Source of the DNA: Auricularia sp. M13
Taxonomy: Eukaryota > Basidiomycota > Agaricomycetes > Auriculariales > Auriculariaceae
DNA: 64,000 nucleotides
Reading direction: 5' to 3'
NCBI GenBank assembly: GCA_037042915.1
Contig: CM073196.1
Coordinates: 1,116,001-1,180,000 of the forward strand
The translations under genes were made by a program, and so were the position numbers. The notes below the pieces were generated by a model. That model searched no databases. It was given only the letters and a program-made list of their open reading frames with translations, and was not told where the DNA came from. Below, piece after piece: positions 30,949 through 62,908 of this stretch (within the stretch, counting starts at the first letter, position 1; each line of letters starts with the position of its first letter).

Positions 30949-32239
30949 GGTTGAGAGCTGAGTGCGGAAAAATGCTACTGGCTGTCGATGAGGAGTGTTA
31001 AGCGATACTGTCCACTTCTGCAGTCCTCAACGCTTATATACCTCCTGCTCAACGCGTCGATCAGAGAGTCTCAATTCGGAACGCCCGCGCAGGTGCAATC
31101 GAGAACGGTACCGGAGCCCGCCCAATGCCAAATCATGTCTCGGAAGCCGGAAGTCGAACGAAGAACGCTACAGTCAGAGTAAGTCAAGAGCACAATTACG
31201 CGCGCGCAGAATCCTGGCAGCAGATGACTGTAACAGTGCGACGCCGCCGAGTCGTTCGCAGCCCGAGCAGTGACAGACTCGGAATCCAGCCCGAGCAAGC
31301 CTCCAGTGAGCAAACTATCGCGTCCATTCACTCTGCAAGAGTCGGCGGTACACGTTCGAGCAGGCAAAGTCCCCCCGTTCAAGTTCAAGGTGCGGAACAA
31401 CGGTGACGGCTGAGTCCGAAGCGTGTCTCCCTCCTCCCCGCGGTCGCCGTTCTGCGATAAGATCAGCCTTTGTGCGTCTGAGAATGCACAGGCTGTGAGG
31501 GACAAGCGGTGCATTGGCCAATGGAGTGGCAAATCAGACTGTCACTGTACAGCGCTGCAAGATCTCCCTGCACGCATAGGCCGCATCACATACTGTACCG
31601 CCTTTGCATTCCCTGACGCACCTCCACGCCTCGCCACGTTCGCACGGAAACAATACCTCGCACAGCCTCGCTCAGACTCAGATTCAGAAGGCAAGCGAAC
31701 GAACAAAGAAAAGAAAAGATGCGAAGTAACAATGGCATTTCAGCCTGCATTGGAAGCTACGCATTACAGATTCGTCTACCTACAAGACCGAACCCAGCCA
31801 TATACACATCCCCATCCCCACACCCCAGCCTCCCCATACAATCCCACCAGCCCAGGAGCATACAGACGCGCGCCTTCATCGTCGAAGGGGGTACGCAGCC
31901 GGGCGCAGCAGGAAAGGGAAGCCAAGTGACGACGAGGGAGGAAAGCGCGACGGCGAAATCAGAACCCCGGTGGGGGCTACCCTACTATGATACTCGAAAG
32001 CGCGGCGAGGACAGATAGACAGACAGAACGAGGAAGGGGGACAATATAACAAAGTACAAAGAAAACACGATGACGATGGATGCGATGCGACGACGGCGGA
32101 GACCTTGATTGCGTTGTGTAGATAAAAGTTGCTTGGTTGGTTGGTTGTGCGAGACGACGGGGAGAGTGCGAACGAGGAGAGGCGAGAGAAAGCGACGAGC
32201 GACGTGGGGCGAGGGTCCATGGATGCGGCCCGTCTACGT
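30949..32239. other. intergenic region, no supported gene
   Basis: The left 400 bp belong to the duplicated promoter unit of the secreted-protein trio. The rest, with many CCCCATCC-type runs and the likely TBP 3' untranslated region, shows no coding signal. Confidence 0.5.
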
Positions 32240-33370
32240 CTAGGGCTTGCGGAATTCGCAAAGCACGGTGTATATCGTGTTGAAAGCAGCGTAGATCTCC
32301 TCCCGAACCTGCAAAGCAGTTAGCAACGAGGGTTGAGCATTGGCAATGCAAGCCAGCTGACCTTGGCGCCGGTGAGGACGATCTTGCCCGAGACGAAGAT
32401 GAGGAGCACGACCTTGGGCTTGAGCATGCGATAGATAAGACCCGGGAACAACTGCACACAAACAATGCATGAGCACAAGGCACAACAGGAAACAAAGCAA
32501 AGCGTACCTCGGGCTCGTAGCTCGAGAACTGTCCGTGGGAGTAGGCGAGGCCCTCCAAGCGGATGGGGAACTTGACGTCGCACGAGCCGACAATGTTCTG
32601 GATCTTGAACTCGGAGAACTTGGCGTCGAAGCCGAGCTTCTGGACGATGCGCGCGTACTTGCGCGAGGCGAGGCGCGAGTCGTCCTCGGACTTGGCGCCG
32701 CCGGTGACGACCATCTTGCCCGACGCGAAGATCAGCGCCGTCGTCTTCGGCTCGCGGATGCGCATGATGACGGCGGCGAAACGCTGCGAGTCAAGGCAAA
32801 GCGTGAACATGCACAACGACCCGTGCGAGGGGTCAAGTACCAACCTTGGGGTTGTACTCTGCGTTGCGCGCGTGCAGCGCGATGGTCTTTAGGTCGAGCC
32901 GGCAGTCGAGGTTGACCGTGGCGACGATGTTTCTTGGGGGGCAGCATAAGCGACTGACAACTCGGTGGCACAAAGAAAAAAAATATGTACTGGAGGGTGG
33001 GCACGATGCCGTCGACGGCAGTGATGTGCTGCTGCTCGAGCGTAAGCGGCACAGCCTGCTGGACGTCCACCGCGTCGCCCGCGGGCGCGGGCTGGGAGGA
33101 GGTCGACGCGACGGGCTGCGCTTGCTGGGCGCCTTTGATCTGGACAGCGCCGAAGGATGGGCCAGCTTGGGGCTGGGAGCCAGGCAGAGCGAGGAAGGAG
33201 CTACCAGGTAGCGCGAGGCCGCCGGCAGCCTGCTGCTGGGCCTGCTGTTGCTGCTGCTGCTGGGCCTGCGCTTGGGCCTGGGCGGCGGCGGCAGCCTGAG
33301 CCTGTGCTTGGGCCTGCAGCATGAACTGCGGGCGGCGGTTGTTGAGGGTGATTTGCTTGTTCTGGAGCAT
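32240..33370 (-). CDS. SPT15: TATA-binding protein (TBP)
   Basis: TBP is the DNA-binding core of TFIID and is used by all three RNA polymerases. The N-terminal tail [20 protein letters not shown] is followed by Gln/Ala-rich repeats ([20 protein letters not shown]). The conserved saddle has two imperfect repeats: [80 protein letters not shown], then [55 protein letters not shown] and [18 protein letters not shown]. These are near-invariant across eukaryotes. Several introns split the core. Its own promoter has a minus-strand TATATA at 33502-33509. The Gln/Ala tail is likely polymorphic in length. Confidence 0.95.
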
Positions 33371-42100: not shown

Positions 42101-43866
42101 GTAAGAGCACCACATAAGTCGAGTTGGCGCGCCGAGCGCGTCCGCGCGATTGGACATAAGATATGAGATTCTGGAGGCCGTCGAAGCGCACGACCAGATG
42201 GCAAGCCTGGAAGTCAAGGCCCTCCTCCGCCACAGAAGTAGCCAAGAGCATATTGTAGACGTCGCGGCGGAACCCGTCGACGATGGCAGCCTGCTGCTTC
42301 GAGTCCATCCCAGCGAGATCCGTTTCCCCGGCAGTTGCGTGACCGATGAGGGCTGCTGGGGAGACCCAGTTCAGCTCGGGTAGTCGCGGAAGGAGCTCGG
42401 CCAGAGTCAGCGCGATGTGCTTCTGTTCGACGAAGATGACGCATTTGAAGTGATTGTCGTGGTGCTCGCAGAGGACATCGGATAGCAAATGCAATTTGGG
42501 AGAGATCAAGGACGCCGGAATCTCCGCGAGCTCAAAACCAGGCGCAAATTCCACGAGGCGGGCGTGTACATCTTCAAAACGCTTGAGGGTGGCGAGTGAT
42601 TTATTGGTCCCCGAAATGGCTGCTTTGCGTGCAGCGGCCGTGAGCTTGCTGACCAGGGCCGTGAAGTACTTATGAGCGAAGAACTCGGCAGCGTAGACAC
42701 CCAAAGAGTCAAGCAAGACGTCTCTCCGAGTTTTGAGCTTCCCGAAGTCCGGGACATCTTCCTCCAAGAGCGGAGAAAGATTGTCCCAGACTGCTGGAAC
42801 GCTGACCTCGGGCTCGACCATCATGTTGTGTGCGGCATCGATATCGTCTGCATCCGCAACGTCGAGTCCATAAGTATCGGCTTCGGTAGGAGCGTAACTC
42901 CGGTAGAGATAGACGAGCTCCTTCGGCTTGTTGACGTGCTTGGATAGCTCGACTTGGTGTTCCTTCACCGCAATGATCTTCGCGTTCATCGTGCTCTCCA
43001 GAGCACTCAGCTGCTTCTCAGCCCGTTCTCGTTTCGCGTCCCAAGTGGGCGAAGCCGTCATGCCGAATACTTTAGGCAACAATTAGCCCCAGGACGGAAA
43101 AGCCAACTGCGAGCCGAGCTCACTCTTCGGGCGCTTGCTGCTGGGCAACGTGGCGACAAATTGGTTGAGGATTTGCGCGTACGGATGTTTACCCTGCGCA
43201 TGGTGCGCCTCGTCGAAGACCAAGAGCGAGATCTGGTGCAGCATCAGCTGCCGGTGCCCGTCAGGATCCAACGCTCCCGTGCCTTCTGCATCTGCCAATG
43301 GGCGTGCGTAAGGAGGTCAAGTAGGATTTGGGCTGTCATGAGTGTGTAAGACGCCGTGCCTCCTCGTGGTGTCGGTCGACACTCACGCGTCATTACGAGG
43401 ACATCCCGCTTGCTGAATTCCTTCTGCCACTGGTCTCGATCCCAGAGCTCGAGCTTCTTATCATCAACAGTCATCTCGCCAATGTAATGTTGGGTCCTGA
43501 GAGGGACGCGAGGCTTTATGAAGGCTGCTTGCTGCACGACCAGTGGTCGTTTTGGCGCGAGGAACACCACTGTGCACATCGTTAGCATCCATCGCAGTGG
43601 TAAGCTCACCGCTGCGCACCGACTTTACGCTCCGCAGATGGCTGGGCTGCAATCCACTTGATGAGCTGAACGGCGATAAAGGTCTTGCCTGGATTCTATT
43701 TAGCCAGCACGATGTGGCCAGAGGTATGCCGGATAGCGAACACACCTGAACCTGTATCCAGTACGGCGATGACATTTCCCTGCTTGGCCGATACAAGTAT
43801 TTCCTCCTGGTATCGCCGCACCACAAGCGGCGCCGGCGGCGCGTCGTCCTGGCTCTGATGTGGCAT
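39166..43866 (-). CDS. dcl: Dicer-like ribonuclease III
   Basis: Dicer cuts long dsRNA into small interfering RNAs. The start at 43866 is in a strong CCACCATG context and gives MPHQSQDDAPPAPLVVRRYQ. The helicase has Walker A DTGSG/KTFIAVQ split by an intron, the DEAH box LLVFDEAHHAQGKH, then GMTASPTWD, and the C-terminal helicase motifs LLATSVAEEGLDFQACHLVV and YVQSRGRARR. A Dicer-dimerisation region follows (TYDTAISILERLCASAPSDQ). RNase IIIa has QRLETYGDAFLKLG and MQECVEALLGAAF. RNase IIIb has SYERLEFLGDGALLDMAVTQ and LGDLVEAVFAALF. No PAZ or C-terminal dsRBD is clear. One exon spans 40236-43082. The last 300 bp, after QVLSDEESPFHMLHLC, are uncertain, so the end is approximate. Confidence 0.9.
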
Positions 43867-44004
43867 GGTGGCGGGCGTAAAGGAGCGTACGCGGACGCGG
43901 GGCTTGCCGAAGCGCGCCTCTCCCAGGTCAGGCTGTCCCTAAAAGGGTCCCGTTAGGTGGATCCCTCCCTTTGATGCAATCCACCCAGTAGGTCTCTCTG
44001 GCAG

Positions 44005-44156
44005 TGGCATGCCATGGCGCGCCAGAGGATTGCCTCCCATAGCGAGCACCAAGCGAGCACATGGTGACTTCTGCGCTATCTCCTGTGGTGCGCCAGCGGC
44101 ATCCTGCGCTCTCAGTTTGGCGTGCCACCTCCGCTGTTCTTTCCGTTGGCGCGCCA
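44005..44156. repeat. cluster of TGGCRYGCCA palindromes upstream of Dicer
   Basis: Perfect 10-mers begin at 44005 and 44015 (directly abutting), 44118 and 44147, with a one-base variant TGGTGCGCCA at 44086. The step from 44086 to 44118 is 32 bp, the same period as in the main array. The cluster lies 140-290 bp upstream of the Dicer start codon. Confidence 0.75.
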
Positions 44157-44526
44157 TCGTGCGACCCGACTTAGAACTGCCCGGTTAGAATCAACGCCAT
44201 GTAATCGAGCATCCAGCGAGTCCGTCGGCTGCTTCAATCTCACGACGCAATTTCTGACTGGGTATACACCCGAACTCCTATCCCCCGCACTGCGTCTGCG
44301 TCGGCCACATTCAACTCAGGTTCACCATATTTGTGTCTTGCAACTGAGTCCGCGTCTCCGAATCGTCGAGCCGTACATTTATCATATTTGAGAGCTACGG
44401 CAAATGAACAGACAGAGTGGCTGACATGGCGCAGGCAAGTAGAAAACAAGGGCACACATTTTGCTGCTCAATACGCGGTCAGTGCACTGCGACACCTTCT
44501 AGCACATCTACCGGGACTTACTCGAA

Positions 44527-45018
44527 CTAGTTCTGCGCCTTGAGTTTCGCCTCAAGGCGTTCGCAGCGCCTGGTGAGGCGTTTGATGTCCTGGCGCAGCT
44601 TCTTCTCGGTTTCCACCAGGTCGTCGTGCTTGTCCAACAGCTGGGCCAACTCCTCGAGACCGCCCTCAAAATTGTCTCGAGCTTCCTCGTCCGCGTAGCC
44701 TTCAAGGAGCGCGGTGCATTCCTCGCGAAGCCACTCCAACGTCTCCTTTTTGACGTCGTCTATGATGGTCATAAGGCGACCGTCGGAGGAAGTCTTCTGC
44801 TCTTGCTCCCTCCGAGCGCGGAGCCGTTTGAACGCCGCGCGCGGCGTGATGGCTGGTGAGGCCGCGAGGCGCTTATTAGCCTTCGGCGTGGTAGCATCGG
44901 CGGGCGAGGTAGCAGCCCGCTTGAGAGTGTTCGCCGTCGAAGGCGGCGGCGTCGAGGGCGGCGCTGTCGGCTGCGTTTCGTACGACGCGTCGGTGGAGCA
45001 CGGCGAGGGAGCGTCCAT
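44527..45018 (-). CDS. small basic coiled-coil protein, unknown family
   Basis: This is an intronless 163-residue frame. The N-terminal 65 residues are Pro/Thr/Ala-rich and likely disordered, with two basic patches (TPKANKRL and AFKRLRARREQEQK) that could act as nuclear localisation signals. The C-terminal 80 residues are helical: TIIDDVKKETLEWLREECTA, EEARDNFEGGLEELAQLL, then a heptad pattern in LVETEKKLRQDIKRLTRRCE and RLEAKLKAQN. I do not recognise a family. Its 5' side, only 80 bp away, is the 32-bp palindrome array. Confidence 0.55.
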   Translation of the reverse strand: MDAPSPCSTDASYETQPTAPPSTPPPSTANTLKRAATSPADATTPKANKRLAASPAITPRAAFKRLRARREQEQKTSSDGRLMTIIDDVKKETLEWLREECTALLEGYADEEARDNFEGGLEELAQLLDKHDDLVETEKKLRQDIKRLTRRCERLEAKLKAQN

Positions 45019-45097
45019 GGTACCAGGTCAAGAGATGGGACTGCCCGACAAATTGCTCGACGGCGTGCGGATGGATGCATGGCACCGCCATCAGTGC

Positions 45098-45674
45098 TGG
45101 CACGCCAACTCGCACTCCCAAGGCAGCGTTGGCGCGCCATCTCCCAAGTCCTGTCGCAGAGATGGCGTGCCATCTCTCACTTCCACATCAGCGGTGACAC
45201 ACCAACTCGCGCTCCCGGAGTAGTGTTGGCGCGCCAACACTCTGTCCTGCATCATTGTTGGCGCGCCATCTCCCAGCTTCGCTCGCCGAGATGGCGTGCC
45301 AACTCTAACTTCCGCATCACCGCTGGCGCGCCAACGCGCTCTCCCGCATTTGTCTTGGCGCGCCATCCCTCTGTTCCGCATCACTGTTGGCGCGCCATCT
45401 GCGAAGTCCGGTCGCAGAGATGGTGCGCCAACTCTCTGTCCCGCATCAGTCTTGGCACGCCAACTCGCGCTCCCGCAGCAATGTTGGCGCGCCAACCCTC
45501 TGTCCCGCATCAGCGCTGGCACGCCAACTCGCGCTCCCACAGGAGTGTTGGCGCGCCAACTGTCTGTCCCACATCATTGCTGGCACGCCACCCTTCGCGT
45601 CTTCGTGCACCATCTCTCACACCTCGCAGAGATGGCGCGCCAACGCTGCTGGTCACCATCAATGTGGCGTGCCA
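45098..45674. repeat. 32-bp-period array of TGGCRYGCCA palindromes
   Basis: Sites begin at 45098, 45130, 45163, 45194 (degenerate), 45227, 45259, 45292, 45324, 45356, 45388, 45421, 45453, 45485, 45517, 45549, 45581, then 45633 and 45665. Steps are 31-33 bp, mostly exactly 32, with one break of 52. The 22-bp spacers fall into three types: ACTCGCGCTCCCGCAG-like (I), ACTCTCTGTCCCGCATCA-like (II) and TCTCCCAAGTCC-GTCGCAGAGA-like (III). Their order I-II-III-II repeats every 129-130 bp. The array lies between the divergent starts at 45018 (minus) and 45758 (plus). Confidence 0.92.
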
Positions 45675-45705
45675 TCTCTCGTCGCCCCCAGGATTATCCC
45701 TGCCT

Positions 45706-45712
45706 TATATAA
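45706..45712 (+). promoter_or_regulatory. TATA box right of the palindrome array
   Basis: TATATAA stands 32 bp after the last palindrome of the array and 46 bp before the ATG at 45758, so the array appears to end where a core promoter begins. Confidence 0.5.
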
Positions 45713-45757
45713 CTATCTCTTCAACCGCCTGATCGACAGCCGCATTGCCCCAGACCC

Positions 45758-46018
45758 ATGTCGTCTTCTTCCCAACCAAGGTCTACTTGCTCACTCGACC
45801 TCTGCACTTCGACGCAGCACATTGAAGCTGCATTCGCGTCCCTCCGCACATACTCGCGCACACCAACGGCCGTCTCTCGCAACGCAGGCTTTGTCTGCTC
45901 TACCTCGGTCTTGCAAGACGCTCATTTCGACCAGGGCAATATGTCGTACGTGTTGCAGAGCCGTCACGGATGCCCTCTCTCACTCAGTTGCAATGACAGG
46001 CCCATTGGTCGTCCATGA
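45758..46018 (+). CDS. possible small protein of 86 residues
   Basis: This open frame begins 46 bp downstream of a TATA box and reads MSSSSQPRSTCSLDLCTSTQ, SLRTYSRTPTAVSRNAGFVC, ending LSCNDRPIGRP. It is Ser/Thr- and Cys-containing without a signal peptide or known domain. It is kept only because of its promoter position; it could equally be the first exon of a longer transcript or non-coding. Confidence 0.3.
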   Translation: MSSSSQPRSTCSLDLCTSTQHIEAAFASLRTYSRTPTAVSRNAGFVCSTSVLQDAHFDQGNMSYVLQSRHGCPLSLSCNDRPIGRP

Positions 46019-46198
46019 GGCCAGAGCGCGGGGTCTTGCGCACTTATCTTGTAGCGTGTGATATCTGTTCGCGTCCCAATCAAGTCGTTGCCATTGTCTA
46101 TATAAATCATTATCACTGCCTCAGGGCGTCAAACGCAAAGGTGTATTAATGTCGCTCGGGCGCACACGAAGATAAAACATAAATAAAGCATATCTCGA

Positions 46199-49100
46199 TT
46201 ACCAGCCACCATACCCTGGGTTTTGTTCCTGCCACGAGTACATAGTACCATCCGCGACGCCTTCCATGTCGGCCTGATGAGATGTCGCCACGAACATGGC
46301 ATGCGCGCCCGGTTCTTGCTGCGTCTGCTGCGTGGCCAACAGAGGCTCCGCAAACGCCGTGTCGTTCTCCTCCTTAGCAACCGACATACTGCTGCTCGAA
46401 GCGCCGAATGTTGAGGCTGCGTGCTCGGCGGGGCGATGCCAGCTAGTCGGCACATAACCAAGCGCGATGAGCCGCTGCAAGTCCTCTATCGTCATTGGCT
46501 GGCCCGCCTGCACCTCCTGCTGTATCTGGGGCTGCGCGTGATGCTCCGGTGGCGGCGGCTGCGCGGGCGGCGGGCGCTGCAATTGACGTGCCGTCTGCCC
46601 TGTAGCGGCGTTCGACAGCGCCGCCGCGTTGTTAGCTCCTCCAGCGTGGAGGACCTGACGCTGGGCCGTGTGACTGGATCGAGACGTGACGCCGTGCGTG
46701 CCGCCTAACGCATTGGCCAAGCTGCTGGATGATGCGGGCGACGGCTGGCGATATGCGGCCGAGGGGATGTGCTGCGCGACGCCGAGCATGTTGCCCGATG
46801 GGGACTCAGCGCGACTTGTCCCTGCATTCAAAGGCGGTGCCAGAGGAATGGACAGCGATCCGGATAGGCTGTTGCTGGGAGTGCTGGTCAGGTGGTGATT
46901 TGAGGCGACGCCGGACTGGGCTGGCAGAGGAACATGCTGTGGAGGCGCCAGCGAAGACGCCGCGAAATCAGCATGAATTCTGTCCTCGTGGCGCCGCTGG
47001 ATGTACGCGTCGCCCATGGGCTGCTGGTCGAAGCCGTTCCGTAATACGTTAGACTGGGACGGCGGCGGCGGAGGCGGCGGCGGCGGCGGCGTGGGGTTGG
47101 CGCCAGCATCGTCGTAGTTGCGAAGGGCAGCGTCCGTGTGCAGCACGCGGACGTTTGCGCCGACCAGATGGCCGTCAGAGCTTGAGGCATCGTGGTGCGC
47201 GGTGTTGTTGTCCATCAGGAACCGCGCCTGGCCCGCGCCGTCCACGGAGTACGGCGCGTACGCGCTGTACGCGCCGTCATCGTACTCTGTCGCGCCGTCA
47301 TGCGCTACGTCGTGCACTATCGTCTGCTCGCCGGCGTCCTGCGGCTCGTAGTCGGCGGCGGGTCCATGCTGGGCGAAATGCTGAGGCGCGCCACCATCTA
47401 CTTCGCGAGGCGGCGACAGTCGCTGCACAGCGTGGACCAGCTCGTGTTGCTGCTGTTGCCCGCCCTGCACTCCGTGCATTGCCGCAGCCGGCGTCAACTG
47501 CATGTCCTGCATGTCCTGCGACACTGTGATCGTCCCCGGCCGAGTATGGTGCGAGTTGAGCGCGCGCGACACGGAGCCGTTATCAGGCGCGCTGCTGTCG
47601 GGGCACCCCGCAACGACCGGTCCCTGATTCGTTCCGTCAGTCAAGCGCCACACGTAGCATCTAGGACACTCACTTCCACCTTCATGGGCTCGTCTCTATG
47701 TGGCACCATGGATACCAGACCGCCTTGGGGTGGATCCTTCGACGACGCGCGTTAGAATATGTCAATGCGTGCGTAATGCTGCGTACCTCGTCCTCAGACT
47801 CAACGATCACGCCGCCACCGACAGCGTTCATGTCATCACCTCCCTCCGAAGGTGTCGCGCGTGCGGACTTCGCACGCTCCTGCTTGCGCGAGGCGGCAGC
47901 CGGCTTGCGCGAGCCCGATTCGATCTTCGCCTTGGTTTCGTCCTCGCTGACGTCGGAGAAGCCTTCGACCTTCCTGTGCGCCGGCTTGATCATATCCCGG
48001 GGCAACTTGCTCCTGCCGTGTTGGTTCGTGCGCTTTGCGAGGTCACCAACACGCAGGACGACGACGCCGCGGTTTGTCGTTACGACCGGCGTCTGGTACC
48101 ATTCGTCCCAGTTGTTGCCCATACGCGCAAGCTCCTCTGCGCCGCCGTCAGCGGACCGAAATCGGTATCGATGGAATACACATACCGTCTTTCAGACTCT
48201 GCACCTGCAGAACCGTCGACCTGTCGAACTGGCTGATCGGTACTGCCTTGGAGTCCCTAGCGTTCGGGTTTCGGCCAGGAACCGGTGCTGACCACATATC
48301 GACGTCTTCCTCGTCCTCGAGCGAATCCGTGTACAGGCGGTGCGACTGGAATATAGCGCGTACGAGCCTCGCCATCTCCGCGGTATGCCAGCGGCCGCGC
48401 GCTTCGCTCGGAAGCGCAAGGCCGTCCGGCCAATTGACGATGCATTTCCTCTGCTTCAGCACCATGATCTCGAACTCGGTCCATTGGACCTCGGTCAAGG
48501 CCTGGTTCTGACCACCGACGCAGTCTGTAAACGGTTCGCATGAGCCACGCGTCCAGTTGAGTCCAGCGCGCGTACATACCCTGCCAGTAAAGAAACGCGT
48601 CCTTGAGTATGCCGCGGCGCGCGGTAGGGTTCTTCACATTCTTATATTTATCAAATGCGGCGCGGCTCCAATCTTTCTTGTCGGCCTCGTTCATGAGGTG
48701 AACGCTGCGCCCCTGTCAGCCAGGTAAATCCGCATGCGCCTGCAACTCACTTGAACAAGCTCGCGAAGTCGCCTGTGAGGTTTCGTATACTGAGCTTCAT
48801 CGTGCGCATGAACGTGCGCGCCATTTCCGTGTTCGAGAAGCATCCATTCATCGCGCAGCCTGCTGCGTCGCCGGTGTTAACGCAGACCATGAAACCGAAC
48901 ACGGCAATCTTGTAATTCGTGAAGTACGGCCGGGTCTAGCAAAGAGGAAGAGTCAGTTATATGCGTGCATTGAGGTAAGCTAACTAATCACCATGCCCTC
49001 GATTTCGTGCCCGAGTCGCGCCATGACTTTGAAAGTCTCGCCGGCCTCCAGAACGTCCTTCGCGACTTCCTCCTGAAACTTCTCCGCCCAGTCCAACAGA

Positions 49101-51178
49101 AACTCCCGTTGCTTACGCTTTCCCTCCTTGTCCTTGCTGCTATACTCCTCGTCATACGCGCGCGACCGGCGCTCGCGATACTGATCGAGCGTCTCGCCTA
49201 CATGAACGTCAACAGGCTGCCAATAGTGAGGCGACGCGACGCGAACGTACCTCCGTCGATGTCGCGCTTGTTAATGTAGCTCCAATACTCCTGAAATAAA
49301 TTCCACGTTGACCGGTCGCGCTGGAGCTTCAACTTGATGCGCGTGCGTTCCCAGAGGTACTTCGGGGACTTGCCCGTCGCGGCCGCGAAGTCCATAATGA
49401 ACTTCTCGAACTCGGCGACCTTGGCGTTCAACGTCTCCGTCTCCTCCGCTGTCAGAGGACCCGGTTTCGTCTCTTTCGTAATGCGCTCGAGCTCCTCGAT
49501 GTCGTCGTCGTCGTCGTCGGTCGCGTCCTCGGGCGCTGGCGTGACCGGCTTCTTCGTGCTTCGTGCCCGTCCTTTCTTATTCGCCCGCGGTGCGGTAGGA
49601 GCGTCGGGCTCGCTGTCGCTGACCTCCTCGACCTTGGCCTTGCGCGACGCCTTCGGCTTTGCCTTGCGTTTCGGCGGCAATGCACGTTCGTCGTCGGCTA
49701 CGGAGTCGTCGTCGCTCGCGTCCTCGACGGTGGCTTTGAGAGACTTCGCTGGCGCCGTCGATATCGGAGTCTCGAGACGCGCCGCGGTCGCCGCCACAGG
49801 CAGCGAGCTGGGGCTGACGGCCTGTTGACCGCCGTGGGCGAGCGGCGCCGCGAAGTGCGCGGCGCCACCACCGGCGAGGGCAGCGGCGGCCGTCGCGGAG
49901 AGCGGCGGGTTTGGCCCGCCCGCGAGCGTGGCCGCATGAGACACGGCGAGCGCCGCGCCGTCCGTCAGAGTCACCGACGGCTGCGCAGCGGCTGCCACGC
50001 TCGTGAGCGCACGCGCCTGGGGGACCGACGGCGGCACGGCGTCCGCGGGCGTCACGTTGATGGCGGGCACGGGCGTGACGGGGTGCGGCGCGACGAGGTG
50101 CGGCGCGACGGGGTGCGGGTTGGGCGGAGGAGGCTCGCGCTGCGCAGTGGTCGTGGCCGCGGGTTGCTCAACAGGGGCGTTGAGCGGCTGCTGAGCGAGG
50201 GTGGTGGGCGCGCTCGAGGACGGTCCAGACGCAGTGATGACGCCTGTATGGTGAACCTTCGGCGCGGGCATTGCGGGCACGACCTGGTCAGGCGACGAGT
50301 ACCAGACAGTACCCGCAGGCACGAAGCCCGGCGCCCCCATTGCGCGCGGCGGCGCATGCTGCTGCGCGGCGGCCGAGCTCGCGCCGCCAGCGTCCGCCGC
50401 GCCGCTCCCAGCGGCGCTGCCTGTCAGGACCGTGAGTTGGCGTAAATCCTCGCAACGATTGACATACCGTCAGCGCCATGTTCCGCAGAAGCTGGACCGG
50501 GAGCGGCTGCCTCTGAGTCGCTTGCCATGCTGTCATCTGAGAGACGGTAAGTAATTAGACTATGACTCGAAAAAGCAGCGTATAACTGACCATTTTCGTG
50601 ATCGCCGGCGAGCATAACGTTCACGGAAGCCGCGGCTTGGCCACCGCCACGACCGCCGCGTCCACCGCGACCGCCTCGCGCGCGAGGTGGTCCAGGACGC
50701 GCGCGCGCCGCTGGCTTTCCGCGCGTACGTTTGGCCTGTGGGCCTGTGTCCTATTTGTGTAATGAGTAATGAGCGCGAGCCGCAGGCGTTGAGATAAGTA
50801 CTCACCGTGCTGTCGCCGTCCGCATTTTTCTTCCTCTTTCCACCCGCTGCCTTCTGCTTCTGCGGACGATCAGTGTCTTGGTAGCATGAAATGAGTGAAT
50901 TTACTCACGAGCGCATCGCCGTTATCACTCGCGGCATCGCCGGAAAATGACGCAATGGGTGGGCCTGGGGTGCCGGCGGGAATGACCAAGCTGTTGGAAG
51001 GAGCGCTGCTCCCAGAGGCAGCCGCGCCGCCTTGACCGCTGCCGTCGGTGGTGCCGGCGAGAGCGGCTGTGTCGACGACAGCCGCGGCAACAGCACTCTG
51101 CGTCGACCCTGGTTGCTGCTGGGGATCGGGAGTAGGCTGGGGCTGGGCTTTGGCCTGCTTGCGAGTCGTGGCCACCAT
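46199..51178 (-). CDS. long disordered RGG/HMG-like nuclear protein
   Basis: This multi-exon gene starts MVATTRKQAKAQPQPTPDPQ at 51178. In order: an RGG box (RARGGRGGRGGRGGGQ), Ala/Pro-rich disorder, acidic and Lys-rich patches (LPPKRKAKPKASRKAKVEEV, DDDDDDIEELERITKETKP), then a folded part: TGKSPKYLWERTRIKLKLQR, RSTWNLFQEYWSYINKR (HMG-box-like), DQYRERRSRAYDEEYSSKDK, RPYFTNYKIAVFGFMVCVNT, RTFMRTMKLSIRNLTGDFAS, TEFEIMVLKQRKCIVNWPDG and VSEDETKAKIESGSRK. The last 480 residues are Gln/Pro/His-rich with a run of ten Pro, ending SWQEQNPGYGGW. The HMG-like segment plus the NWP motif recalls a common Agaricomycete family of unknown role. I infer a DNA- or RNA-binding nuclear protein. That the 3' half belongs to the same gene is likely, not proven. 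Confidence 0.55.
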
Positions 51179-51209
51179 GTGTTGTGCGAGCGGGAGGGGA
51201 TTTACTTGG

Positions 51210-51683
51210 TGGTGCGCCAACATCAGGCAGCGGCGTATTTATGGCAGACCAACGCCCGCGCAGATTTGAGGGCGCGTCCAGGTGGCGTGCCATCCGCTGC
51301 GCGTCCTAATGAGATGGCGCGCCACGGCCGTTGCGCCAGGGCGGGTGCCGGCATGGTCGGGGTGAAAACGCGTTCGGGATTCCCCGCATCAACTCTCTAA
51401 TCACACCCTCATCATGGGCGCCGCATCCTCGGGCATGCGATTGCCTCGATAAACAGAAGCACCCATATGCATATCTGATCTAGCCGAGCGCGATGGCATG
51501 CCATCGCTCCACAGTCCTTACCGTGTCCTGGTCGCTGCTGCCGCCGCTCCGGGCCTCCTGCTGCTCTGAATTTTGTTCGCCGCTCTCTCCAGACTCTGGT
51601 TGTCTCACGACGGCGCTCTGCATGCTTAAAATCGCGCAGCAATGGCTCTTTATCGCTTATACTGCTCGGGCGATGGCGCGCCA
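51210..51683. repeat. TGGCRYGCCA palindromes in a divergent promoter
   Basis: Sites are at 51210 (TGGTGCGCCA), 51242 (degenerate), 51283, 51315, 51494 and 51674. Two steps are exactly 32 bp (51210 to 51242, 51283 to 51315). They fill the 708 bp between the divergent starts at 51178 and 51887. A minus-strand ATAAATAC near 51235-51242 may be the TATA of the left gene. Confidence 0.75.
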
Positions 51684-51886
51684 TCTCCCCGCCTCCCGCG
51701 CACATGACGACTTTCCATCAGTTTTCCGGTGGTGGTGTGCAATCTCGCATCTGGGCCACCTTCTCAGCAAATTTCCATGGGGTTCTCCGTGTGCCTGCCA
51801 CGTTACCGCGAGCGTGCCCACCGGGCGCGGTCTTCTGTCTTTGTCACTTAAACCCCCAGACTCGGACTGCCATCGAACTCCTCGCC

Positions 51887-53211
51887 ATGGCTGCTCCCGC
51901 ACCGAACGGAAAGTACGTGGCATCTTTGCCTCGCTGTATGCTGTCTGACGTCCTGTGTTTAGCGAGTCAGACACCGCGAACGCGCGCGATACCCAGTACG
52001 CCATTCACGTCGCATGCGCGTCGTGCACTAACGTTTCCATCCTTAGGCAGGAGGGGGCGACCTCACCGCCCGCTTCAGAGTCGGCCTGGGTGCCTTGGCC
52101 GACGGTCGATCCCAATCAAATCGCCTCGGGCTGGGGCGAGCACGAGGCGCTCGTCCGTCCGCCGAGCCCATTCGTTGGCGACTGGTCCCGCAACGCGATC
52201 GACGAGGAGAACGACCGCACAGACCTCGCGAAGATGTACGACAATCTCGTCGTAGAGGTGGAGCGCCTTCGCGCGCGCGTGGCGGCAGGCGATGACACTT
52301 CGTCCGATGGGTCGGGCAGCCTCGTCTCCAGCGACAGCCTTTCGAAGGAGATGCTCGGCGCGCAGAGCTACATGGAGTACATCCTTCGCCTGAAGGCCTG
52401 CACCGTCGAGGATTGCTCCAGGCTGCATCCTTGCAGCGGCTGTCAGCGATGGGACGGCTCGTTCATGCCGTCGGGGTTTTGGCACTTCCTCGGCGACGAC
52501 AGGATCGAGCGTCATCTCGCTCAATATCTTCGAGTTCGTGACCGTCTTCCTCCCTACCGCAACTCCCTTCCGGACCACTGGGACCCCCCTGTCCTGCGTT
52601 TCGGTCCACCCGCTGCCGCCGTCAGCTCGCAGCCCGTCCCTCCCGTTGCACCGGATTCACCGCCTGCGCCCCCGTCAGCACCCTCCGGCGGCGACTCGCA
52701 GCTTGTCGGGCCCGCGCCGACCACGCAGGATTCGTCGGCGATGCCGACCTCGCTTAACGACGCCGACGTCCGCGCGAACGTCGCGACTTGGCGCGACATT
52801 ACGGCCCGCGTCATGCATGACGGCGATCTCGTCGGCCAGTGGCCTGACGAGCCGATCCCCTCGGGCAACGTCCCCGCCGCGGGCGGCCCCCTCCCTCCCG
52901 CGACTACGCCGCGCCCGGAGTACTCCCCCGCTTTGTCTCCTGACCAGACGGCGAGGATCCACGCCGTCATCAGCGTCTTCAACCAGGAGATGGAGGATTA
53001 CGCGCGCGGGTTCTACACGGCGCCGAACGCGAGCGTTTTGTTCGCGACCGCCGGCCTCACCCTCCGCCGCCCCAATGGCATCGTCGTCAACGGCAACAAC
53101 GCGGCCGGCGATTCCTCCGGGGATGACGAGGACTTGCCAGAGCTCGCAGACGTGACGGACTCGTCGCCGGAGCCTTCGGAACGCGGTGACGATCCTGCTG
53201 GGTCGGCGTGA
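51887..53211 (+). CDS. Cys-cluster protein with Pro-rich linker, unknown family
   Basis: The ATG at 51887 gives MAAPAPNG, joined by an intron at about 51913-51961 to NESDTANARDT and by a second at about 51996-52047 to QQEGATSPPASESAWVPWP. Then comes a helical segment, AKMYDNLVVEVERLRARVAA, a Ser-rich hinge and the compact module MEYILRLKACTVEDC with RLHPCSGCQRWDGSFM, FWHFLGDDRIERHLAQYLRV. The spacing C-x4-C-x5-C-x2-C suggests a zinc site. A long Pro/Ala linker, the segment ARIHAVISVFNQEMEDYARG and an acidic C terminus follow. I do not know the family. It is divergent from the RGG/HMG-like gene and shares its palindrome-bearing promoter. Confidence 0.6.
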
Positions 53212-53325
53212 GGCACGGTAAGTTTTGTCAGATTCTCTATAATTGTCTCAATATTCATTCGCGCGAGCAGGTTCGTGGAATGGCATAGAATAGGCTGTTA
53301 CATTGTCAAGTATATGTATGAGCTG

Positions 53326-54045
53326 CTACACAGACTGCCAGAATAGACTGCCCTCCTCGTACGACGCGTGCAACACATTGTCGCCGCTCTCAAACATCAT
53401 GAGCAACTCTGTAAGACCGGTTGCGATTTGTGTAGCGCGATGGGCAACCTTGGACAAGGCCGATTGGTTACGACGCTCGTTTCTGTACCACGCCTCACGC
53501 GAACCGTTTTCCGCTTCGTCCTGCACCTTATCGACAACGTATTTCTTGTTGCGAATGAGATTGACGATGGGTTTGGAGGCTCTGTGAGTCCCTTGCGCCG
53601 CGATGAGTCGCGTAGTCAGGTCGTCCCAGAGGTCTCGCTCGGGTATGCCACCGAGCCAGGTCTCGAGGTCACTCTGCAACGATTTTGCAAAGGCCTTAAG
53701 GTCTGGGACATCTGATACTTTATAGTGAATGCCCATGAGCTAAATAAATATGTAAATGATCGCGAGAAAGAGAGAGAAATGAACGCACGGCGCTGGTGGC
53801 TGGGAGAATCGGTTGCGGCGAGCGCTCCCTGGTCTTTGCAGCGCGAGCCTGGCGAGCAGCCTGCTTGTTTTCATGATAGATCTTGAGCGAGCGTGCGCAC
53901 TCCCGTTCCTTGTTGCTGGAACAATGTTAATAACAGTGCAGAGAGCGTACGAGAGGCGAACACACCGCTGGTAGTAGTCACGGCGCGATTTCCTTTTAGC
54001 CTCGTCTCGCTCTGCTTCTGTCTTGTACTTTGCGGGGCGTCCCAT
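53326..54045 (-). CDS. basic AT-hook-like protein, unknown family
   Basis: The start at 54045 reads MGRPAKYKTEAERDEAKRKS then RRDYYQR, a basic AT-hook-like N terminus also seen in other Agaricomycete proteins near transposons. An intron leads to NKERECARSLKIYHENKQAA with RQARAAKTRERSPQP, and a second intron to LMGIHYKVSDVPDLKAFAKS, LETWLGGIPERDLWDDLTTR, PIVNLIRNKKYVVDKVQDEA and a C-terminal ATGLTELLMMFESGDNVLHA. The basic half may bind DNA; the C-terminal half looks alpha-helical. A half-palindrome, GATGGCGCGCG, lies 28 bp upstream of the ATG. It is convergent with the Cys-cluster gene. Confidence 0.55.
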
Positions 54046-54929
54046 ATTGAGGCGTACCAAAACGCGGTAACGATGGCGCGCGAAAGGACGCTACAAGAAA
54101 TATGCGCAACGAATGTGAGAGGTGAGAGGCAAGTTGCGACTGCCGCTCAATCCCGGTTTCGCGGCGTTTGTGGCAGAGAAACAAGAAAACAGACTTTAAT
54201 TCTGTGCAAGGAACTGGTTGAAGTGAGGCCTGGGCTGGTACCATAGAGGTGCTCGTTTAACAGCATTTGGATGTCGTTTGGAGAATTTAGAGACTCTCAC
54301 GGTCGCAAACGACGGGATCGTATCACTTATGGATAGAAACGCCAGTGACACCGCCGTACGTCACGACCCCTGCCAACGAGACATGAGGTTGTGGTCTCAA
54401 TCCAAGGACATGGCACGGTCTTGGATAGCTTCCAGTAGACGATACCATAGTTTTCATATAGTATTATTGAGAGTTCACGTTGCTCTGCGGTAATCGGTGA
54501 CTTATGGACCAAAACCTGATATCCTGGAATGTGCTGAGAAGGTGCTAGAACCAGAGAAATTAAAACTTAAAGACATATAGAGAGCTATTCAAAAGAATCG
54601 ACATACTTTTAACCATTGAGACGAGGGCACCAGATGAGTAGAGACGTGGTGCGCGAAGGATCGTGCTCTCTCAGGGTGTGGGACGTCTAACCGTGACTAT
54701 GTGTTAGTCTATCTGAGGGAATTAAAGCATTAACTTTAATATGTGCCCTGTGAGCACTCAAATCAGAGGTTAACGCATTGTTATGGGCATTCCTACGCGT
54801 CGGCGCGCCTACGATAGCGGCGAGACGCGCATTAAAACTCCGCCATCGGCTCTTGGCTTCGTACTTCTCGCGTCAATACGCACGCGCCGGGTGCTCTCGA
54901 ACTTCTGTTCTACTTCGCGCTGGCTTTCC
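54046..54929. other. region between basic protein gene and KDZ transposase
   Basis: There are about 700 bp of AT-richer DNA with no gene, then an open frame from 54783 that may be the start of the KDZ coding region. I looked for KDZ terminal inverted repeats here and did not find a convincing pair with the right side. Confidence 0.4.
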
Positions 54930-57900
54930 ATGAGCTTTGGACTGAACACAGGCGTGGCTCATCGCCGTAGGAAAAATCGAAACGCAGCACTACGGGCCGC
55001 GGGTCTACCCTCTAGCACCACTGCCGATGGCTCGCTCGGTACCCGCGATGACTCGCGCTTCGAGATTCTGCCGTCCTCAGAGCTTCCAAAGCATCGGAGG
55101 AAACCTGGGCAGCCCAAGTTTCCAGCAGCTGTCGGGAATAGTGTGGTTCTGAGACTTCCTGGCGGCGAAGACTACTCGCAACGTCCGAATCTCCCGCCCT
55201 CCGGCACCCCGGGGAAATCTGCTCTCCAGACCTTCTTTGCTACACGAGTCCATGGTCTTACCGCCGAGATGATCGACCTTGTGACAATGGGCGACTGGGA
55301 TGAGTCTCATGTCCTCGGGTTTGAGCTCCCGGACCCAGCTGTATCGCGGCATCATCGGCGGCGGATGGCGCAGCATAATAACTGGAGCACTGTAATGCAA
55401 TCGTCCCGCCTGTATCGCATTTACCTGGGACAGAAGCACGGTCTCGACGCGAACCCTCAGCAGCTGGCGGACTGCACGTGCGCTCGCAAGCGTGCAACTC
55501 GCATAGCACTGGTGGACATACTCGGTGAGCGTATCTCATTAAATTTATGAGCGATTTCTGAGCTCTTGACAGGCACGAAGGATGCTCTCATTGATATCTG
55601 CTCGTGCAGTTCGCCGGCAGAGCGTCTCTTGTCAATTGGGTACTTCCCATGCGCCCCGAAGTGCCCATCTATGGCGTTCAGCACTACGCTATTGGATCTC
55701 ATTTCGATACATTCGCTTAACGTCGCGCCCAACACCACCGCATGGGCGGACACGCTGGAAACTTTCTGGGCTCGACGCGGCCGTTTTCGGAGGTCTACTG
55801 TAAGCTCTCCCCGCGTTGCAGTGAGCGGATAAGGCAGTGGATGACGATGCTATCTCAGGGAAACCTGAGGAAACGCTTGGGCATGGCTATGACTTGGTAC
55901 CAAATATTGGACAACCGTGCGGAATATTTCGCGAGCGAGGAATTACAAGGTGTGCTCTGCTAACTGACGATTGGGAGCGAGGCGATTCTGAGAGACCCGC
56001 AGTAAGCAGCGCGAGGAAACATGGCGCCGGACCCGACATCAATGCGCGCCCGCGAAAGCGCGCGCGCGTGGATGTGGTCTCGGACGGCAGCAACGACGCG
56101 TCGGACCGCGTGGAACCGCGGGGTGCGATTACGCAAGATACAGAGGTACGCACATTTTGGACGATCTTCTTGATTTTGACGCTGGTCCGTAGCGCGGCGC
56201 GCAAGATCCTACCGGCGACGAGCGCGCGGAATCACGCCTCGCAGAGGAGGTGGGACACACGGATTCCAGTCTTCGCTACAAAGCTAACAATGGTAACAGT
56301 CAAGCGGAGACGTGTCTGGTGAGATCGGGCACGACCGCGAGAACACAGAGGAACAACCCGAGCGTCTAACGAGACCATCGCCTCGTCTACGGCAATTATG
56401 CCCGCTGTGTTTTGGCGGAGAACGACCTGTGCTGGAGCATAGCACGTACGTGTTGCCGCAATCCCGCGCATTGCATTGGAAGCTGACGGCATGGATGCAG
56501 TGCTGACGTTGTGGTATGCATCGACGCAAATTTTGCCCAGAAACGGCGCAAGTCGGACAAGGTGGACGCTCCAATCGAATTCCTGGGCGGTCGTTTCCTC
56601 TCGCGCGCGACAGTGGACGCCATGGAGGCCGAGGTCGCCCAGTCGCGCAAGCGTCCAGCACGGCGGCGCACGCGCGGTACATCGGCGCGGGTTGGCGACG
56701 ACGTGCTCGATGAGTGCGAAAAGTCTTTCATAGCAGCGCAGGAAAAAGTCACAAAGGCGTCGAAGAACTATTACGCCGATACGGGGCTCATGGCCCTCCT
56801 GTGTCGACACGACCGCGTGCTGCTGGTCACCAACATGACTAGCCCAGGAGAGCGCCAGCACTACGCGCTGGCCCTGATTCAGGAGTTGACGAAGGAACTG
56901 CCCCACGAGTGGAGAATTGGCCTTCTCTACGATATTGCCTGCCAAATCTCAAGGAGCATCGAGAAGGTATGTATCCCAATCATTGCACGAGATATTGACC
57001 GACGCTAATGAGGAAAAATTTAGTGGGGACTTCTTCCCGAGATAGCAGATCGTTTGACATTCGGCGTCTCAGTGTTTCACGCGTACGGTCATCAATGGGC
57101 CTGTCAGGTCGTATTCCACCCGCGAAAACGGAACGGTTTCGGCTTGAGCGATGGTGAAGGCTGCGAACGATTTTGGAGCAGCATTCGGCATCTCATTGCT
57201 GGACTCCGAGTATCAGGGGTGAGTCCTGTACGCGAAACGATCGCGAAAACCTGAACCTGTGTAAAACAGTTTCACCGTCGTCTCTTCGTTCTCGATCGAC
57301 AGATGCAAGCATTCGATTACGGCGGCATGTGGAAGCTTGCTGCCTGGTTGCGCAAGCGCTTCATGACCGCGAGGCGGCGCTGCAACGAAGCAAACGACAT
57401 CATCAAGGCGAGCGGGGAGTCCGAGGAGGAGCTGGGAAAGCAGTGGGACGCGCAGGCGTCGGATCAGCTCGAAAAAAGCCCTCGTAAGTTTGAACAATGT
57501 CTGGCCTTGTGTGATTCGCGCTATTTATCATTTCATGCGCAGGTCAACTGCAAAACGCTGCAGACAAGATTATCGACAAAATTCTATTGTCTCTCGGTGC
57601 GATCGACAGTCTCAAGCAGCAGATCAAGGACGATCGCGCCGAGCTACGAAAATCGCACAAACTGTCGGTCTCTGAGACTCACAAGACCACAGTGCGTATT
57701 GAAGAGGCCCTTTCGGAGATCTCTTCTATCCAGGCCAAGGTCGAGAGCTTGCAGGCGTCGTTGGGCACGGAGCAGTGCAGGCGGCTGGAGGAGATGCGCG
57801 GCAACGAGTACCTCCGTTTGCGCGTCAATGCGCACAGCACAGGCGTCAAGATTCGCAAGACCTTGATCGCGCACAAGTTTGACCGTCGTAAATTGGAGCG

Positions 57901-59936
57901 GGCTTACCGTCACCAGATCCTAGGTACGCCAGGTTCACTGATCTCGTCGTCGCTTGGCGTAACCTTGCAGCAGAGGCGAAGGACCACTCGCAGACGAAGG
58001 ACCATGTCCACAAACGCGAGAAAACCATCAGCGCGCAGGTGTTGCATTTCAACAAGATGGTCGACCGCATGAACCTTCTCGCGCGCCAGGGCAAGAGACC
58101 TCCGGGCCGCATTCGGCTCCCGCGCAAGCTCGTCGCCAAGAAACTGTTTAAATTGGACGTCGACGACGACATTTGGCAGGAGGATCCCGGCCTGGGACCA
58201 CAAGACGAGGCGGATTTGCCACGGTATGTGACGGACGAGAATGTGCAACGCGGGATAGCCGCTTTGCTCGAGAAACGGCGCTGTACAGAGGAGATTGAGC
58301 GTGTGGAGGCAGAGGTGGGGTCTCTTGGCCAGTGGTGGTGCGAGGAAGCCGCGACTCTGCGCGGGGTCTCAGAGGATGCATCTGGTGCGCAGCAACTTTG
58401 AGTTCGATATCGGCATTGCTCACGCACTGTAGTGCACGAAAGTGTGCGTCTCGCGGTAGCTCGCCGACTTGGCATCCACATGTGTCTGCGTGATAGCTGG
58501 ACGCATGATCTCCGTGTCAGCTTTGAGCTCTACGAGCGGTTTCTCAACAAGCTGGGCAACGACGCGCTGCGCGACGTGTCTGACGCGCCAGAACTCGTCC
58601 GCGACGCTCCTCCTGCACCCGACGCGCGTGAGGCAGATGACGCGGAAGATATGGCCTCAGACGACGCGTCAGATGCGTATTCCGACGGCGATGACGAGGA
58701 CGACCCCGTAGTGGACTGGTTGGACGAGCACAGCCTATTTGGCTCTGACGCGGACGATGATCCAGCCGCTGAGCTGGACACGGCGGGGACCACGCCGTTA
58801 GCAATTGACCCGGAACTCGGGGGTGATACCAAGGTACGCGAATCCCTCGTAAGGAGACAGTTCATTGTGAGAATAACGTAATCCTCGTTCAGGACGCTGA
58901 TGAAGTTGTGTCAGTCGCCTCGCGAACTTCGATCGCACCGCGCGATAACACGCAGCACGCCGTGAGTGTATTTAGTGTGTTTTTAAGATCATGCGGCTGT
59001 TTCTAACGTAGTCATGTTATCTCATACAGGACGCCGCGCAAGATGATATGGCTATCGCTATCGCACCGGAACCGTCGGCATCGAACGCACCGAGGAAGAA
59101 GCCCGTCATGCGCGTCGTGTACAGAGCGGGACGATTCACCTGCAAAGACGAGGACCTCGCTCGTTTCGCGCAACGAACGGCGTGGCTGAGCGGTGACGGA
59201 CTTGCTGTTCTGGCCGAGAGCGAACGACTGCGACTCGGCGTGGACGACGTTAGTATTGTGCACTCGGCTCTGCTATGGGAGGTCGGCAACTACGACCGCG
59301 CTAGATCTGAAGGTAACGCGGATGCGGAGAAGAACAACAAATCCATAATTCTCGGGAAGTTGGGGAAGGTGCGTCTGTCGTAGCGCGTCGATCTCTCTGA
59401 CTTGTCTACAAGCTACTGAACGGCCACAATTGCCGTAAATGGCTAATCTTCGGTCATGTCGAACGGGAACAGCATTGGACGCTTATTGAAGTTCGGTGGC
59501 CGACGCGCGGAATTCACTACTATGACAGTTTCGCGAAGAACGACGGCTACGCAGATGAACTGCAGAAGCGGACTCGCCTGCTTCTACAACTATATGAGGA
59601 TAATCTGGCGCCGGATTTGGACGTGGAAACCTTCACGTGGCATCGAGAACAGGTGAGCTGCACCAGGAGATGATGCCTAGACGGCTGACTGGTGTGGTTT
59701 GATGACAGCGCAGTCGGCGGCAACGGAATGGATACGATTGCGGTCCGTTTGTTGCGGCCGACGCCGTGAACCTCCTCACGTCAGATTCTCCGAACGCAGC
59801 GCAGGAGAAGGAGATGGCCCAATGGAGAAAGGTGATGGAACAGAAGGTTCGAGCGCTGAGAGTTGTTGAAGAGGTTAATACGGGCCCGGGAAACGTTTTG
59901 GCAGTCATAGAGATAAAGGACAGCGATGAGGAATAA
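54930..59936 (+). mobile_element. KDZ-family DNA transposase fused to a ULP1-type peptidase
   Basis: Kyakuja-Dileera-Zisupton transposase. The N terminus MSFGLNTGVAHRRRKNRNAA precedes a Cys-cluster region (ADCTCARKRATRIALVDILG, LIDICSCSSPAERLLSIGYF, CAPKCPSMAFSTTLLDL). After a CPLCFGG knuckle comes the core: VVVCIDANFAQKRRKSDK, GLLYDIACQISRSIEKWGLL, GVSVFHAYGHQWACQVVFHP, GFGLSDGEGCERFWSSIRHL, FHRRLFVLDRQ. Long coiled coils follow, then an acidic linker. The C terminus is a C48 peptidase: HWTLIEVRWPTRGIHYYDSF (His, Asp) and QRNGYDCGPFVAADAVNLL (Gln, Cys). About ten introns are needed. Around 55790-55860 and 56300 the frame changes and no ordinary intron is obvious, so slight decay is possible. 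The start could instead be 54783. Confidence 0.8.
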
Positions 59937-59962
59937 ATGACATGCATGATGGAACGGCACGC

Positions 59963-60110
59963 GGCTTAACATCCAATTTATCTTGCTGCTCTTGAATCGG
60001 CGCGGTTCGGCTCCCGGCTCAACATCCAATTTACCGTAAGTACTGCTCTTGGATCGGCGTGATTCGGCTGCCGGCTCAACATCCAATTATCTTGCTGCTC
60101 TTGACATTAT
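59963..60110. repeat. three tandem ~55-bp repeats after the transposase
   Basis: The core AACATCCAATTTATCTTGCT recurs at 59968, 60021 and 60078, with TCTTGAATCGG and TTCGGCTGCCGGCTC filling the unit. Periods are 53 and 57 bp. It begins 30 bp past the transposase stop, so it could be a subterminal repeat of the element. Confidence 0.75.
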
Positions 60111-60368
60111 GAATCGGCCAGGCGTTTCTTTAGAAGTTTGTCATGCACGACAGTACGGCGAACAGGATACCAGCGCAGTCACATTGCCATTCAAGCGTTC
60201 ACGCGTAGACGGATACATGAAAGACACAAGCGCGGCGGGAAACGAGTCAGGCAACGACAGCAATGGCGGCCAGGTAGTACTTGAGCTCAAGGCGGTCGGC
60301 GCGACTCTTGCCGTTCGTCGCGCGGTAGTAGTCATGTCTCCTGCGTGCGTTGTATTCGGCAAAGGTTT

Positions 60369-60740: not shown

Positions 60741-60875
60741 GGAGGAGGCGAGTAGAGGGACTGCGGGGGGAGAGAGTTCAGTCTTGGCGGCGGCGGAACA
60801 AGGACCGTGCTCGCTGTATTTAAGGGTTGAGCCGGCGACGTGGCAGGCACACAAACGGTGAGACCAAGGCATAGA

Positions 60876-62020: not shown

Positions 62021-62279
62021 AAAGTGTAGATGTGTCAGCCAGTATTGCCAATTGGTCCGAAATCATCGCTGATCTCCTTTGAGCCGTTTTGGCGGTCCGC
62101 GACAGTGAGAATGAGTAAAATATAAATGGTTGTATTGTCCTGCGCTGAGAGATTGAGTGCGAGGTTTGAGTAAGTAATGGGACAGAGATGGGCAGGGAAG
62201 GAAACATTTACTTAGCCCGCGATCAGCTGCGCGCTGCCGACGGCCCTGCGGAGATGGGCGCTTAATACGGAACAAGCGT
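62021..62279. other. gap between palindrome clusters
   Basis: AT-richer sequence without the palindrome and without a supported gene. A short minus-strand frame here has no domain. Confidence 0.35.
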
Positions 62280-62877: not shown

Positions 62878-62908
62878 CCACAGCTGCGCGCACGTTAGAA
62901 CAACAACG

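Follow-up and report, generated by a model that had tools for sequence, protein, structure and literature searches.

Why does a short stretch of the Auricularia sp. M13 genome carry eighteen sites for one palindrome, TGGCRYGCCA, at intervals of about three helical turns? We addressed this question in the 64-kb stretch of DNA that contains the array (hereafter the window), for which a sequence-only reading had proposed a silencer, partition site or iteron on which a dimeric protein binds cooperatively. The array is located as follows.

45098 to 45674, no strand: main phased array, 18 palindromes at 32-33 bp with one 52-bp break

Sixteen of the 18 sites match TGGCRYGCCA exactly and two are degenerate, namely TGACACACCA at 45195 with two mismatches and TGGTGCGCCA at 45421 with one; the earlier count of 18 stands, but it allowed for a single degenerate copy. 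The 17 intervals measure 32 bp (13 intervals), 33 bp (three) or 52 bp (one), in agreement with the earlier description of spacing that is mostly 32 bp with one 52-bp break, except that its range of 31-33 bp was too wide at the lower end (no interval is 31 bp). A decayed palindrome copy, judged by eye, seems to lie near 45600 inside the 52-bp break. Tandem-repeat periods of 32, 64 and 129 bp were detected in the array, the longest being a higher-order repeat (4 x 32 + 1) with 3.1 copies and 78% matches according to TRF, and the three 33-bp steps return every 129 bp. The strict register of the array is thus in part a consequence of this higher-order repeat, and tandem duplication accounts for at least some of its spread. 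Compared pairwise, the 18 units are nonetheless on average 89% identical in the palindrome versus 51% in the spacer. The palindrome is therefore conserved over the spacers, which was the test named in advance against a plain minisatellite.

The window has 45 exact copies of TGGCRYGCCA, whereas 100 dinucleotide shuffles lead one to expect 0.55 and never gave more than 3. Of all palindromes that fit NNNNRYN'N'N'N', 256 families in total, it is the outlier with its 45 copies, the runner-up having 5, and it alone among these RY-centred families forms pairs 31-33 bp apart. All 45 exact sites lie inside an element at 43925-62813, which occupies 29.5% of the window, and none lies in the remaining 45 kb; positions 1-44000 hold no exact copy. 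When transitions are allowed at all four CpG letters (TGGYRYRCCA), 51 of 51 sites fall within the element. A further 23 sites in the window have one mismatch, 15 within the element and 8 outside. Within the element the exact sites are restricted to the left 1.75 kb (20), the centre (4) and the right 2 kb (21), with none elsewhere, and the outermost palindromes are placed almost symmetrically, at 80 bp from the end on the left side and 79 bp on the right. The stretch 45098-45674 is therefore only part of the palindrome's territory, which also includes the following clusters.

44005 to 44156, no strand: outermost left palindromes, 4 exact and 1 with one mismatch, the first 80 bp from the left end
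51210 to 51683, no strand: central cluster, 4 exact and 1 with one mismatch, at an apparent divergent promoter
60876 to 62734, no strand: right array, 21 exact palindromes, the last 79 bp from the right end

Direct reading of these clusters indicates that their spacers are largely different from one another. The palindromes have symmetric flanks, with G at -2 in 35/45 and C at +2 in 27/45, and the core is extended to GWTGGCRYGCCAWC in 16 of the 45. Transitions are concentrated at the two inner CpG letters (29, versus 6 at the two outer letters; p 1.2e-4), although our site counts treat related copies as independent and the p values are optimistic for that reason. A protein that reads the outer bases would be expected to leave such a bias. 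The observed/expected CpG ratio is 1.23 within the element versus 1.16 in positions 1-43900; CpG is not depleted in the element, so decay of the palindromes by methylation is not evident.

The element that contains the palindromes has the features of a KDZ-type DNA transposon.

43925 to 62813, no strand: KDZ-type DNA transposon, 18,889 bp, with terminal inverted similarity, a 9-bp flanking direct repeat, and KDZ and CxC1 domains
43916 to 43924, no strand: left target-site duplication GCCTCTCCC, exact 9-bp word
62814 to 62822, no strand: right target-site duplication GCCTCTCCC, exact 9-bp word
43925 to 44210, plus strand: left terminal inverted-repeat region, degenerate, 5 palindromes, inverted alignment to the right end
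62543 to 62813, minus strand: right terminal inverted-repeat region, inverted alignment to the left end

The termini read AGGTCAGGCTG...CAGCCTGTGGT, the right end reversed being ACCACAGGCTG. Alignment of 43929-44210 with the reverse complement of 62809-62543 scored 95.6, whereas the best of 200 mononucleotide shuffles reached 47.5. Stretches that carry palindromes also scored above their shuffles when compared on the direct strand, in two of three cases (119.5 vs 71.6 and 90.6 vs 60.6) and in a later comparison (57.0 vs 49.6). Palindromes raise scores on either strand, which inflates the unmasked scores, and we therefore repeated the end comparison with palindrome-free and masked controls. The palindrome-free outer 80 bp scored 41.0 in inverted orientation, a value reached by none of 500 shuffles (maximum 24.5), and 24.0 in direct orientation, which was reached by 6 of 500. 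With palindromes masked, the whole outer region again scored 41.0 inverted (0/500 shuffles). For both pairs of ends compared after masking, the outer pair and an inner pair described below, only inverted similarity clearly remains. Over their first 70 bp, the two ends are identical in just 46 of 76 alignment columns, which suggests that the element is of some age and probably not young. A flanking word of 9 bp or longer was obtained in 3.0e-4 of 200,000 shuffles and in 3.3e-4 of 100,000 random window draws, in a test (offsets 0-10, right offset within one of the left) that was designed after the repeat was seen.

Three coding pieces of the element gave matches to protein families.

55551 to 55829, plus strand: transposase piece with CxC1 cysteine cluster (PF18802, E 1.9e-7, 31.6 bits, cut-off 26.9)
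56487 to 57005, plus strand: transposase piece with KDZ domain (PF18758, E 2.7e-32, 112.7 bits, cut-off 26.6)
59401 to 59670, plus strand: weak Ulp1 (C48) peptidase-like piece (PF02902, E 0.0014, below the curated cut-off)

The KDZ superfamily features found are thus a KDZ domain, a CxC cluster before it, and terminal inverted repeats, here degenerate. On these sequence features the element is placed in the KDZ superfamily, and we name no lineage. The active KDZ transposons KDZ1-KDZ3 of Cryptococcus neoformans are about 9.2-11 kb long with TIRs of 139-241 bp, and KDZ1 has an 8-bp target-site duplication, according to the portions of the report available (PMC12810828); at 18.9 kb, with degenerate ends and a 9-bp duplication, our element differs from them. 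The fungal TET-bearing elements Kyakuja, Dileera and Zisupton are assigned to the KDZ superfamily, with duplications of 7 bp in two Kyakuja families and 8 bp in Zisupton and a Dileera family (excerpts of PMC12730594). The duplication here exceeds by one base the 8 bp of Zisupton, a Dileera family and KDZ1 as given in those sections (PMC12730594, PMC12810828); a duplication of 8 bp plus one chance match would fit the exact 9 bp seen in this single copy. Two Laccaria Kyakuja families are described in the same excerpts as having 5'-CA..TG-3' termini beside a 7-bp duplication and no TIR (PMC12730594). Our element instead has ends that read AGGTCAGGCTG and, reversed, ACCACAGGCTG, an inverted repeat is present, and CA..TG starts four bases within the 9-bp duplication on both sides, so it does not have the form of terminus given for these two families. 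No TET/JBP dioxygenase domain, the mark of the TET-bearing elements in those excerpts (PMC12730594), was matched in the ORF pieces scanned, which are a part of the element's pieces. Searches with tblastn detected no relatives of the KDZ piece, the C48-like piece or the 163-aa ORF (described below) in viral contigs, and none of the KDZ piece in plasmids.

The central cluster is joined to the right end region by an inner inverted repeat of ~500-600 bp.

51205 to 51800, plus strand: inner inverted repeat, left copy, carries 5 palindromes
60841 to 61341, minus strand: inner inverted repeat, right copy, inverted alignment to 51205-51800

Inverted alignment of 51205-51800 with 61341-60841 scored 211.2 against a shuffle maximum of 57.6, and 90.1 against 36.2 with the palindromes masked; the masked direct comparison was at chance level (reached by 127 of 500 shuffles). 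This inner repeat could represent an older end of the element, or a promoter that has been duplicated. We considered a smaller element bounded by 51205 and 61341 and rejected it: its candidate duplication is inexact by eye, and the outer ends, with their exact 9-bp repeat, include all of the sites. In the outer inverted alignment, all five left palindromes fall on right-end sites in the same order (four TGGYRYRCCA and one TGGCTTGCCA), and all five left-copy palindromes of the inner alignment are likewise aligned to right-copy sites. The combined 10/10 (one of them TGGCTTGCCA) is not independent proof of shared sites, since the aligner is itself drawn to palindrome matches.

The location of the palindromes relative to the genes of the element suggests a possible second role. 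The ORFs beside the clusters are listed below.

44527 to 45018, minus strand: 163-aa ORF, of which the main array is the upstream region, no Pfam match
49201 to 51178, minus strand: ORF pieces of a proline-rich gene (gene model inferred), start codon at 51178, 31 bases from the central cluster
53743 to 54090, minus strand: ORF piece with the short basic motif MGRPAKYKTEAERDEAKRKSRRDYYQR, no Pfam match
60369 to 60740, minus strand: 123-aa ORF adjoining the right array, no Pfam match

The main array had been said to lie between two divergent start codons, which is half right. On the minus strand, 45018 opens the 163-aa ORF; on the plus strand, 45758 opens only an 86-aa ORF with no family match, which may be a short gene or nothing. 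Both this ORF and a TATA-like box (45706) lie downstream of the main array on the plus strand (45706-46018). A single-sequence AlphaFold model of the 163-aa protein has a mean pLDDT of 66.0 and is best at residues 131-163, a long C-terminal helix; a helix is also predicted at residues 59-76 in a basic stretch, followed by longer helices. The model of the 123-aa product is of low confidence (pLDDT 46.3). The proline-rich gene had no Pfam match in three pieces and only sub-threshold, chance-level matches in a fourth. The ORF piece at 53743-54090 is, by eye only, a candidate DNA binder. The only sites in the interval that separates the central cluster from the right array are four with one mismatch (52789, 54074, 58079 and 58581), so the presumed transposase promoter is without an array.

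To return to the spacing, we used a jitter null, in which 43 sites outside the main array (exact or with one mismatch, inside the element) were each moved by 10-30 bp, in place of a null that spreads sites evenly. Outside the main array, eight pairs are 31-33 bp apart, against 1.4-2.2 expected (p 5e-5 to 3.5e-4). Without five possibly dependent sites (61221, 61510, 61606, 61675 and 61706), five such pairs remain against 1.1-1.4 (p 0.005-0.012), and exact sites alone give four pairs among 29 sites (p 0.006). A general helical period of 10.5 bp is weak outside the main array (Rayleigh, p about 0.09). The earlier idea of helical phasing therefore holds in the narrower sense that a preference for ~32 bp recurs outside the main array, but less so as general 10.5-bp phasing.

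That the palindromes lie inside a KDZ element is well supported; that they are bound by a protein we infer. We think it likely that they are subterminal recognition sites of the KDZ transposon, to which a dimer encoded by the element binds for the pairing of the ends and probably also for gene control. Each palindrome would hold a symmetric dimer, formed either by the transposase, which would make contact through its cysteine cluster, or by a small accessory protein, and the spacing of roughly three turns would let neighbouring dimers touch. Transposon ends loaded in this way would pair before excision, and the same binding could adjust transcription of the element's own genes, as suggested by the position of arrays upstream of several element ORFs. 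Candidate binders predicted from the sequence are the CxC1 part of the transposase, the 163-aa protein and the product with the basic motif at 53743-54090. Cooperative dimer binding along a phased array survives as the best mechanism, and palindromes are kept over spacers (89% versus 51%), although the sequence-only reading missed the transposon and gave the array the wrong, host setting.

Alternatively, the arrays could be operators only, with a regulator of the element controlling its genes while the transposase reads the terminal 80 bp instead. Arrays do lie upstream of the 163-aa ORF, the 123-aa ORF and the ORFs that flank the central cluster, which is itself distant from both ends, and the terminal 80 bp has no exact or one-mismatch palindrome yet has inverted similarity of its own. 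We nevertheless regard this account as unlikely. The palindromes occur in the same order at both ends over the outer 280 bp, the symmetric offset of 80 and 79 bp is more natural for end recognition, and 41 of the 45 exact sites are held by the end regions.

A plain minisatellite that expanded within a transposon end, with no bound protein, appears quite improbable. In its favour are the periodicities of the main array (32, 64 and 129 bp) and, in the right array, a 96-bp tandem duplication at 94%. Moreover, where the diverged inverted copies are aligned, conservation is not significantly higher in the palindrome columns than in the rest (57/68 vs 297/395, p 0.16; 46/57 vs 131/187, p 0.13). Against this, spacers in the main array are far less alike than the palindromes, the palindrome recurs in the other clusters between largely different spacers, and inner and outer letters differ in how often they are substituted. 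That a protein of the host (a regulator, a silencer or a partition-like protein) binds the array is very hard to credit: a phased palindromic array is plausible as a protein target and eight one-mismatch sites lie outside the element, but the array belongs to one end of a KDZ DNA transposon and not one of the 45 exact sites lies in the 45 kb beyond it.

Recognition sites near transposon ends have precedents outside the KDZ superfamily. The soybean CACTA element Tgmt is 20.5 kb long with many subterminal motifs at both ends, and in maize Spm/En the element-encoded protein TNPA binds such repeats, acting both in transposition, for which it is required, and in regulation of the element, according to the available sections of PMC2613891. 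Our element resembles Tgmt in its large size and in having motifs near both ends. However, Tgmt has 4 repeats on the left and 24 on the right that can fold into stem-loops, a 10-bp palindrome phased at 32 bp is not noted in those sections (PMC2613891), and the transposase here is of the KDZ rather than the CACTA/EnSpm type. In the hAT element Hermes, subterminal repeats are read through BED zinc fingers and include two paired palindromes (PMC10368747, in part), and the left end of piggyBat has three imperfect palindromes read by cysteine-rich domains, one extra site restricting movement (PMC11707139, in part). As far as these excerpts go, the likeness lies in repeated subterminal sites, some of them palindromic or nearly so, bound in those systems by zinc-containing transposase domains, whereas the transposases and motifs differ from ours (PMC10368747, PMC11707139).

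Binding-site arrays near transposon ends are thus known in several superfamilies, and none was found described for KDZ elements in openly licensed papers. The word "subterminal" is absent from the main text on KDZ1-KDZ3 (PMC12810828), where the sole occurrence of "palindrom" refers to a restriction site, and from the main text on TET-bearing KDZ elements (PMC12730594). In openly licensed Zisupton literature where "subterminal" co-occurs, it is used for something else. Literature searches for the motif (TGGCGCGCCA and six variants) named no fungal regulator in titles or abstract openings among the matches listed, and the looser motif GGCGCGCC combined with promoter terms gave nothing relevant among the matches listed.

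Arrays of TGGCRYGCCA were also detected in two other genome contigs, at 32 bp in a Myxococcales contig (L010) and at 30 bp in L011, both with near-identical spacers. The L010 array (1638-1839) has seven copies of TGGCGCGCCA at exactly 32 bp, with pairwise identities of 100% in the core and 95% in the spacers (compared with 89% and 51% in our main array), and is apparently a plain minisatellite that shares core and pitch by coincidence. Nine viral stretches have a motif pair at 30-34 bp, one pair each. We rejected these bacterial and viral occurrences as relatives, L010 and L011 for their near-identical spacers and the rest because, from the sequence beside the sites only, they were taken for chance or coding repeats.

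The insertion site adds a host gene to the question. To the left of the element is a leftward-reading Dicer-like gene with ribonuclease III domains, a Dicer dimerisation domain and a helicase. By reading, its probable ATG is at 43866, separated from the element by 58 bases including the duplication, and the gene on the right probably starts at 62909, 86 bases beyond the right duplication. Pieces of this rightward gene had no Pfam match; we take it to resemble phosducin-like proteins. If the element were taken out, ~144 bp would separate the two starts, leaving a very short divergent intergenic region (43866-43924 and 62823-62909), and the best explanation is that the element inserted between the Dicer-like gene and its divergent neighbour. 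Transcription of Dicer may now depend on a transposon end. A bolder extension, which we consider doubtful, is that one dimer reads one palindromic code at three-turn pitch at both ends and at the internal divergent promoter, so that pairing and control form one switch, and that it also governs the Dicer-like gene. The idea of such control over an RNA-silencing gene of the host comes from the position of the element 58 bp upstream of the Dicer-like start codon, a position that makes a link between transposon and silencing gene testable. If the palindromes are subterminal recognition sites, large KDZ elements could be searched for by this short motif as a mark of their ends, and work on the protein that recognises KDZ ends would have a concrete target.

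Scans of the window gave no Rfam match at the gathering score and no tRNA genes under bacterial search settings. Elsewhere in the window, two neighbouring coding stretches at 15391-18435 are related (translated pieces 45-81% identical), and three related neighbouring stretches at 26179-31270 contain low-complexity tandem repeats. The translated pieces of 13126-13917 and 23733-24840 are 32-48% identical and are possibly a further related gene pair. A conserved TATA-binding protein gene is located at 31977-32843.
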